From assembly GCA_003215475.1 (NCBI GenBank), contig QCKH01000008.1, positions 1 to 64,000 of the forward strand: a DNA stretch of 64,000 bases, in the 5' to 3' direction. The notes beneath the pieces are model-generated. The model saw only the letters and a program-made list of their open reading frames with translations. It ran no database searches and had not been told where the DNA came from. Of this stretch, positions 47,648 through 48,776 are shown piece after piece. This DNA is from Prochlorococcus sp. AG-409-L21. GTDB lineage: Bacteria; Cyanobacteriota; Cyanobacteriia; PCC-6307; Cyanobiaceae. A program made the position numbers and the translations under genes. Each line of letters starts with the position of its first letter. Within the stretch, counting starts at the first letter, position 1.

Positions 47648-48776
47648 TCAAATATCTAAGGAAGTATTTTTGTCTTGTACTCCCTGCAAGAGAAGAGATT
47701 GAATAAATTGATCCAAGTCCCCATTCATTACTCCTTCAACATCAGTAGATTCTTCGTCAGTGCGAAGGTCTTTAACTATCTGATAAGGATGGAAAACATA
47801 ATTTCGAATTTGATTTCCCCAAGCTGCTTCAACTATATCTCCTCGAATATCAGCAATCTCTGCTGCCCTTTGTTCCTGAGCAATAACCATTAATTTTGCT
47901 TTTAACAATGCCATAGCTTTCTCTTTGTTTTGCAATTGAGAGCGTTCTTGAGTACAACGAACTGCTAACCCAGTTGGGATATGTAAAATTCGCACTGCAG
48001 TCTCAACCTTATTAACATTTTGTCCCCCTGCTCCACCAGATCGACTAGTAGTAACTTCTAAATCCTTTTCAGGGATTTCCAATTGAACTTCCTCATCTAA
48101 TTTAGGCATAATTTCAACACCTGCAAAACTTGTCTGACGTTTCCCATTGGCATTAAAAGGAGAAATTCTCACAAGTCGGTGAGTACCTTTCTCATTTTGC
48201 AAATAACCATATGCATAGCGGCCTTCAATTTCAATAGTTGCGCTTTTTATACCTGCTTCTTCTCCCTCAGATAACTCATTAAGGGAAACTTTCATTCCAT
48301 GGGCTTCAGCCCATCTTGAATACATCCTTAGTAGCATCTGAGCCCAATCCTGAGCATCCGTCCCCCCAGCTCCTGCATTGATTGCTAAGACCGCCCCTTC
48401 TTGGTCATAAGGACCGCTTAACAAGCGTTCCAGCTCCCAAAGATCTAAATCATTACCTAACTTAGTTAATCCCAATTGTCCTTCTTGAAGTATTTCATCA
48501 TCAGGTTCAAGTTCATATAGCTCTAATGTGGCTTTGGCATCTTTCAATGATGTTTGCCAGTCAACTAATTTATTCAATTGACCTTTAACATCATCAAGTT
48601 GACGCATTTTTACTTGAGCCTTCTTTTGATCATTCCAAAAATCTGGTTGGGCAGCAATTTGCTCAAGATCCTTTTGCCTTGCCTGTAAAGCAGGGACGTC
48701 AAAGACAGTCCTGAGCATTGCTCAGGCGATCAGTTAGCAAAGAGAGGATTCTTTTGAAATCTGTAAGATCTTGCAC
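47648..48776 (-). CDS. prfB: peptide chain release factor 2, expressed by programmed +1 frameshift
   Basis: RF2 reads UGA and UAA stop codons. The long frame (47648-48718) lacks the true N-terminus. Upstream, in the other frame, GTG at 48774-48776 opens a 25-codon ORF beginning [14 protein letters not shown] and ending AQDCL, then TGA (48699-48701). The junction is CTT TGA C, the classical RF2 frameshift site, preceded by AGGA four bases away. Slipping +1 joins L25 to DVPALQARQ and gives a 375-residue protein. In that numbering SPF (stop recognition) falls at 205-207 and GGQ at 250-252, identical to E. coli RF2. Low RF2 thus favours frameshifting and restores RF2. The coding path is 48776-48702 then 48700-47648. 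Confidence 0.95.
48698..48712 (-). promoter_or_regulatory. prfB programmed +1 frameshift site
   Basis: On the minus strand, AGGA (48709-48712), a four-base spacer and CTTTGAC (48698-48704) reproduce the autoregulatory RF2 slip signal. It comprises an internal Shine-Dalgarno-like sequence, a slippery CTT and the weak stop context TGAC. The stop is codon 26, the same position as in E. coli. Confidence 0.92.

Follow-up and report, generated by a model that had tools for sequence, protein, structure and literature searches.

A conserved hairpin in the place of the internal Shine-Dalgarno sequence at the prfB frameshift site of cyanobacteria

In the prfB gene of the 64-kb stretch of DNA analysed here (the window), a perfect 7-bp hairpin, CCUGAGC-AAU-GCUCAGG (48726-48710), stops 2 nt short of the E-site codon and 5 nt short of the CUU of the frameshift site. 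This conserved hairpin stands in the place of the Shine-Dalgarno (SD) sequence and was overlooked in an earlier note on the same DNA. The hairpin structure itself is well supported. In the class to which the window and its relatives belong, presumably Cyanobacteriia, the internal SD is probably reduced to AGGA, with the hairpin serving as the upstream stimulator of the +1 shift; such a function is suggested by its position, its conservation and experimental precedent. The prfB frameshift itself is textbook biology.

The gene lies on the minus strand, where a GTG at 48776 opens a run of 25 codons up to the site CTT TGA C. The body of release factor 2 (RF2) follows in the +1 frame and ends at 47648 (Table 1). 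An in-frame TAG stands two codons before the GTG, so that no ATG, GTG or TTG is available between the upstream stop and this start. The earlier note had proposed the GTG start, the 25 upstream codons in another frame and a +1 slip yielding 375 residues, and joining the two frames bears this out. The joined protein, of 375 amino acids, carries SPF at position 205 and GGQ at position 250, as stated there, and its identity as RF2 is confirmed by a score of 474.5 bits against TIGR00020 (Release factor 2), above the curated cut-off of 370. SPF and GGQ are RF2 motifs, found at the same positions in E. coli RF2. The long frame on its own, from the ATG at 48718 to the stop at 47648, encodes 356 amino acids; full-length RF2 requires a +1 slip at CUU UGA C. 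The stop of the RF2 gene itself (47648-47650) is TGA, the codon that RF2 reads. The genome of the window, which is 70% complete, holds one further PF00472 gene, on contig C5; it is 35% identical to RF2 and is taken to be RF1.

Several traits of the RF2 +1 frameshift cassette are present here: an early in-frame UGA, a body in the +1 frame, a slippery CUUU and a C after the UGA. By homology, RF2 would also regulate its own synthesis in this organism, as the earlier note had claimed. That claim holds in part: the slip site, the UGA and the C agree with the known cassette, whereas its strong SD-like stimulator is missing. In the autoregulatory cassette of E. coli and most bacteria, a published account places an SD-like consensus near AGGGGG three nucleotides before CUU (PMC12421855). 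No such strong internal SD was found at the window's prfB, where the place reads CAGGAC.

Table 1. Features of the prfB start region and frameshift site, in window positions
Feature	Positions	Strand	Remarks
prfB ORF1	48702..48776	-	GTG start, 25 codons, last codon CTT just before TGA
prfB ORF2	47648..48700	-	+1 frame from GAC onward, RF2 body, stop TGA
Shift site CUU UGA C	48698..48704	-	CTT 48704-48702, TGA 48701-48699
E-site codon UGU when CUU is in the P site	48705..48707	-	Read from the sequence
AGGA, taken as internal SD remnant	48709..48712	-	AGG inside hairpin 3' arm; own 16S anti-SD intact
Hairpin 5' arm CCUGAGC	48720..48726	-	Perfect inverted repeat with 48716-48710
Hairpin triloop AAU	48717..48719	-	Varies among relatives (alignment A1)
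Hairpin 3' arm GCUCAGG	48710..48716	-	Pairs with 48726-48720
Internal ATG of the long frame	48716..48718	-	Judged a false start; spans hairpin loop and first base of 3' arm; not conserved

Perfect repeats of 7 bp with a 3-nt loop occur six times in the window, one of them exactly here, in front of the prfB slip site. The predicted fold of a 37-nt stretch containing this hairpin has an energy of -13.4 kcal/mol (z -3.3). A longer piece of 97 nt, from the GTG to 22 nt past the CTT of ORF1, shows no stability above that of shuffled sequences (z -0.8); the hairpin is present in both its minimum-energy and its centroid structure. A predicted stable hairpin thus adjoins the E site of CUUUGA, as an upstream-hairpin +1 stimulator requires. 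Rfam at its gathering thresholds gave no match within the 64-kb window.

For comparison, the starts of prfB genes were gathered from 80 named loci and from further genomes, 281 loci in all. A candidate slip site is present in 279, and 260 genes remain when identical ones are merged, as was done for the tree test and for the energy, codon, pairing and AGGA counts, since the same genome can occur under a name and under a code. These 260 comprise 123 from the family of the window (its named members being Prochlorococcus, Synechococcus, Cyanobium and allies), 92 from other families of the same class and 45 from other classes of the phylum; NCBI places a named relative in Cyanobacteriota, and the other genomes are assigned by kinship labels only. 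In the family, CTTTGAC occurs in the fitting frame in 140 of 141 loci, a set that includes the window's gene twice and some genomes twice and comes down to 123 distinct genes, and the sole locus without it is interrupted by a contig end. The alignment of relatives that the earlier note had called for thus finds the site conserved, and the sequencing error that it had named as a possible refutation is ruled out, because the frame relation recurs in all these loci. Across the class, the slippery CUUU is present in all 215 genes and the C after UGA in 214; among 14 further prfB loci, described below, this C is missing in L284, L285 and L291.

The start codon differs within the class, being mostly GTG or TTG in the window's family and mostly ATG in the remainder. 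A GTG or TTG lies exactly 25 codons before the TGA in 123 of 140 family loci (two are too short to judge), a pattern that the GTG of the window fits. Between 19 and 32 codons before the TGA, GTG and TTG are the only start candidates in 103 of 123 family genes, while ATG occurs in 15, no candidate in 3, and 2 are incomplete; in the rest of the class ATG occurs in 86 of 92. Start codons of this kind possibly provide a second means of holding RF2 low.

At the internal SD, the class differs from its sister classes. The place of the SD in the 45 sister-class genes reads AAGGAG in 24, AGGAGG in 7 and AGGGGG in 7. Mean SD-antiSD energy is -8.5 in the sister classes, compared with -4.1 in the family and -4.3 in the class, and a value of -6 or lower is reached by 42 of 43 sister-class genes but only by 3 of 123 in the family and 12 of 92 elsewhere in the class. 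The folding energy just upstream follows the opposite course, averaging -12.0 in the family, -11.1 in the class and -1.9 in the sister classes, where 7 of 43 genes have some fold of -6 kcal/mol or lower in the same stretch. The sister-class energy set (n = 43) leaves out L106 and L108 and keeps L104, and the pairing set (n = 45) includes all three. In four sister-class loci (L104, L105, L106 and L108) the prfB frameshift has apparently been lost, L105 having no site and the other three spurious ones.

These figures bear on the best placed of the rival explanations, by which the classical mechanism persists with a short SD: pairing of AGGA with the anti-SD would drive the slip, and the hairpin would shield or time the SD, for example by hiding AGGA from other ribosomes until the translating ribosome opens the stem. 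AGGA does occupy the sister-class SD position in 212 of 215 class genes (122 of 123 in the family, 90 of 92 outside it), the window genome has an intact 16S anti-SD (CACCTCCT), and as AGG lies inside the 3' arm, SD pairing and the hairpin would compete. The retention of AGGA is in part a consequence of the stem. A mean duplex energy of about -4 is weak beside that of the sister classes, and the conserved 5' arm would be superfluous for an SD. Moreover, L203, L216 and L288 have lost AGG yet hold the inner stem, an indication that the stem counts for more than what is left of the SD. On balance, a short SD as the driving element is an unlikely account, if one still to be reckoned with.

The hairpin is distributed as a stimulator common to the class would be. 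Counting GU pairs, 122 of 123 family genes and 90 of 92 from elsewhere in the class form at least 6 of the 7 pairs, whereas all 45 sister-class genes form at most 5. In the family the stem has 7 pairs in 120 genes, 6 in 2 and 5 in 1; in the other class genes it has 7 in 65, 6 in 25 and 5 in 2. Its most variable element is the inner closing pair, which is standard in all 123 family genes and lacks a standard pair in 24 of the 92 others. At E 0.001, a covariance model (R1) matches 191 of 195 class genomes, a count that includes the window's own genome and many of the genomes from which R1 was made. Two of the four misses have no prfB match at E 1e-80, and the other two have only a match below the family cut-off, taken to be RF1. 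Re-examination of 20 genomes, mostly those with weak R1 matches or none, gave 15 full prfB genes, of which 14 were new; with GU counted, all 14 form at least 5 of the 7 pairs and 13 at least 6.

An inverted repeat might instead act on DNA or transcription, as an operator or pause site, or on mRNA stability, and not on frameshifting. A palindrome could bind a protein, and a second role is conceivable. Such an explanation is nonetheless very improbable, given that the distance from hairpin to CUU is constant, with no insertions or deletions, in each of the 116 distinct sites aligned in A1, that the hairpin occupies the SD place of the sister classes, and that in the 70% complete genome of the window the prfB site is the sole significant match to R1 (E 4e-12, the next being 1.9 and 5.4).

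Two genes count against the proposal. In L123, a one-contig genome of the window's genus, the stem is much weakened (1470-1503; -3.7 kcal/mol for a 24-nt piece) and AGGA is absent, with CTTTGAC kept; this gene may be in decay or may use another fold. The stem of L077 is also weakened (-4.8). The A1 row for L198 is a second RF2-like gene entered in error, whereas the genuine prfB there does carry the hairpin; the wrong row remains in the family site and start counts, A1, the shuffle covariation and R1, and was put right for the tree test, the energies, the genus and codon statistics and the pairing, ATG and AGGA counts. L198, L209 and L211, all of one family of the class, each have such a second RF2-like gene immediately upstream of prfB and in the same orientation. 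These second copies are 41-47% identical to the RF2 of the window, compared with 70-72% for the main copy, and have TGTCTTTGAC without the CCTGGG/CCCAGG hairpin. Another oddity is L058, a contig titled as a Bifidobacterium breve MAG, whose prfB is of cyanobacterial type and 81% identical to that of the window; the contig is probably mis-binned or mis-named.

The changes in the two arms suggest selection on the pairing. Over the 116 distinct A1 sites, pairing is seen in 96.1% of cells and falls to 57% or 44% when the partner is shifted by one base. Cells changed on both sides number 51 against a mean of 24.6 in shuffles, a value reached in none of 500, although the shuffle control ignores relatedness. 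The excess is slight for stem pairs with change on both sides (3 against 2.0, reached by 14 of 500) and for further pair types (8 against 7.2, reached by 94 of 500), and two of the seven pairs supply the greater part of the covariation. For one pair, counting each genus once per state gives G-C 63, G-U 17, A-U 11, A-G 1 and A-C 0 (Fisher p 4.5e-7), where genera are not independent and some are doubled, named and coded genera being unmatchable. By gene, the association persists in each of three GC classes, low, middle and high (p 6e-4, 0.012 and 3e-5). A tree-based test of independent changes leans the same way, on too few pairs for significance: in 5 supported pairs an average of 2.6 agree and none opposes, and a second column pair offers 3 pairs.

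Codon choice shows the same constraint. In the 215 class genes, the Leu codon is CTG in every one (59 expected from usage further along these genes), the Gln codon is CAG in 214 (102 expected) and the Arg codon is CGC in 198 (81 expected). In the open frames of the window the codons that the stem needs are rare, CTG making up 5%, CGC 7% and AGC 9% of their sets. Alternatively, the arms might pair only because they encode a conserved peptide, RLGxAQDYL, required either within RF2 or as a signal in the nascent chain; this peptide is indeed fairly conserved. The choice among synonymous codons, however, is much narrower here than downstream in these genes, and given the peptide and the codon usage of the window, the chance of 7 Watson-Crick pairs is 3.6e-4. 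Replacements of Gly/Ser, Ala/Thr and Gln/Arg also keep standard pairs; L293, L294 and L296, with Arg for Gln, keep a U-G pair. The codon usage and these pair-keeping replacements reject peptide constraint as the whole cause, and the by-product explanation is highly unlikely.

Hardly credible, finally, is internal initiation of RF2 at the ATG at 48718 without any slip, for although the long frame has an ATG here, as it does in 82 of 121 distinct family genes, this ATG is missing upstream of the slip in the other 39 (26 of which have no ATG, GTG or TTG there at all) and in 88 of 92 genes from the rest of the class, and the ORF1 peptide and CTTTGAC are conserved. The ATG was rejected as the RF2 start on these grounds. 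As the earlier note had suspected, it is very probably a false start, and a poor candidate because it lies inside the hairpin loop and the first base of the 3' stem and is often absent in relatives.

If the hairpin is the stimulator, the following course of events may be envisaged. A ribosome reading ORF1 would melt the hairpin, which, once CUU and UGA occupy the P and A sites, would refold immediately behind the E site, where the mRNA leaves the ribosome. There it would take roughly the place of the classical SD-antiSD helix, straining the mRNA and the E-site tRNA. With RF2 scarce, the pause would be long, the peptidyl-tRNA-Leu would re-pair with UUU and RF2 would be made; with RF2 plentiful, translation would end after 25 codons. 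We infer the refolding in the exit channel and the RF2 feedback, as well as the SD being the older state. That the cyanobacterial line replaced an mRNA-rRNA SD helix with an mRNA-internal helix after its split from the sister classes is a proposition with about as much for it as against it.

The prfB cassette has been described as hyper-conserved across bacteria, SD included. A class-wide weak SD with a hairpin in its place would mean, if the proposal is true, that the stimulator is exchangeable, and would offer a natural system in which to study the action of an mRNA-exit duplex on +1 slipping. As such a stem needs to refold, temperature or ions may also influence how much RF2 is made. Annotation would be concerned as well, since cyanobacterial prfB can be missed or truncated by open-reading-frame callers and by motif searches that rely on the SD.

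A literature search found no report of a cyanobacterial prfB hairpin, though an older one (e.g. in Baranov et al. 2002) or one in a subscription journal is possible, and a word search of the main text of a 12,753-genome survey returned no instance of cyanobacter-, Prochlorococcus, Synechococcus or hairpin. Among known systems, barley yellow dwarf virus makes use of a -1 shift. Its frameshift site shares with prfB a natural stem-loop 5' of the shift site but belongs to a virus and a eukaryotic ribosome (PMC5009743). The bacterial prfB +1 cassette has in common with the present gene the CUU, an in-frame UGA near codon 26, the C after UGA, a short ORF1 and a long +1 frame; the difference is that here the AGGGGG-like stimulator is reduced to AGGA, with a conserved hairpin in its place (PMC12421855; PMC5009743). 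A further likeness is to artificial hairpins that refold upstream of CUUUGA, also by the E site, in imitation of the internal SD. Placed beside CUUUGA, such a hairpin stimulated +1 slipping to about 60% of the effect of an SD (Huang, Cho and Chang, 2018; PMC6321510), in a 70S extract and only without RF2. Because an artificial hairpin beside CUUUGA stimulates +1 slipping, the cyanobacterial hairpin may be regarded as its natural counterpart. As described there, the artificial hairpins have 12 bp and a UGCG loop (PMC6321510), whereas that of prfB is natural, with 7 bp and a 3-nt loop, lies 2 nt from the E-site codon and holds the remnant SD inside it.
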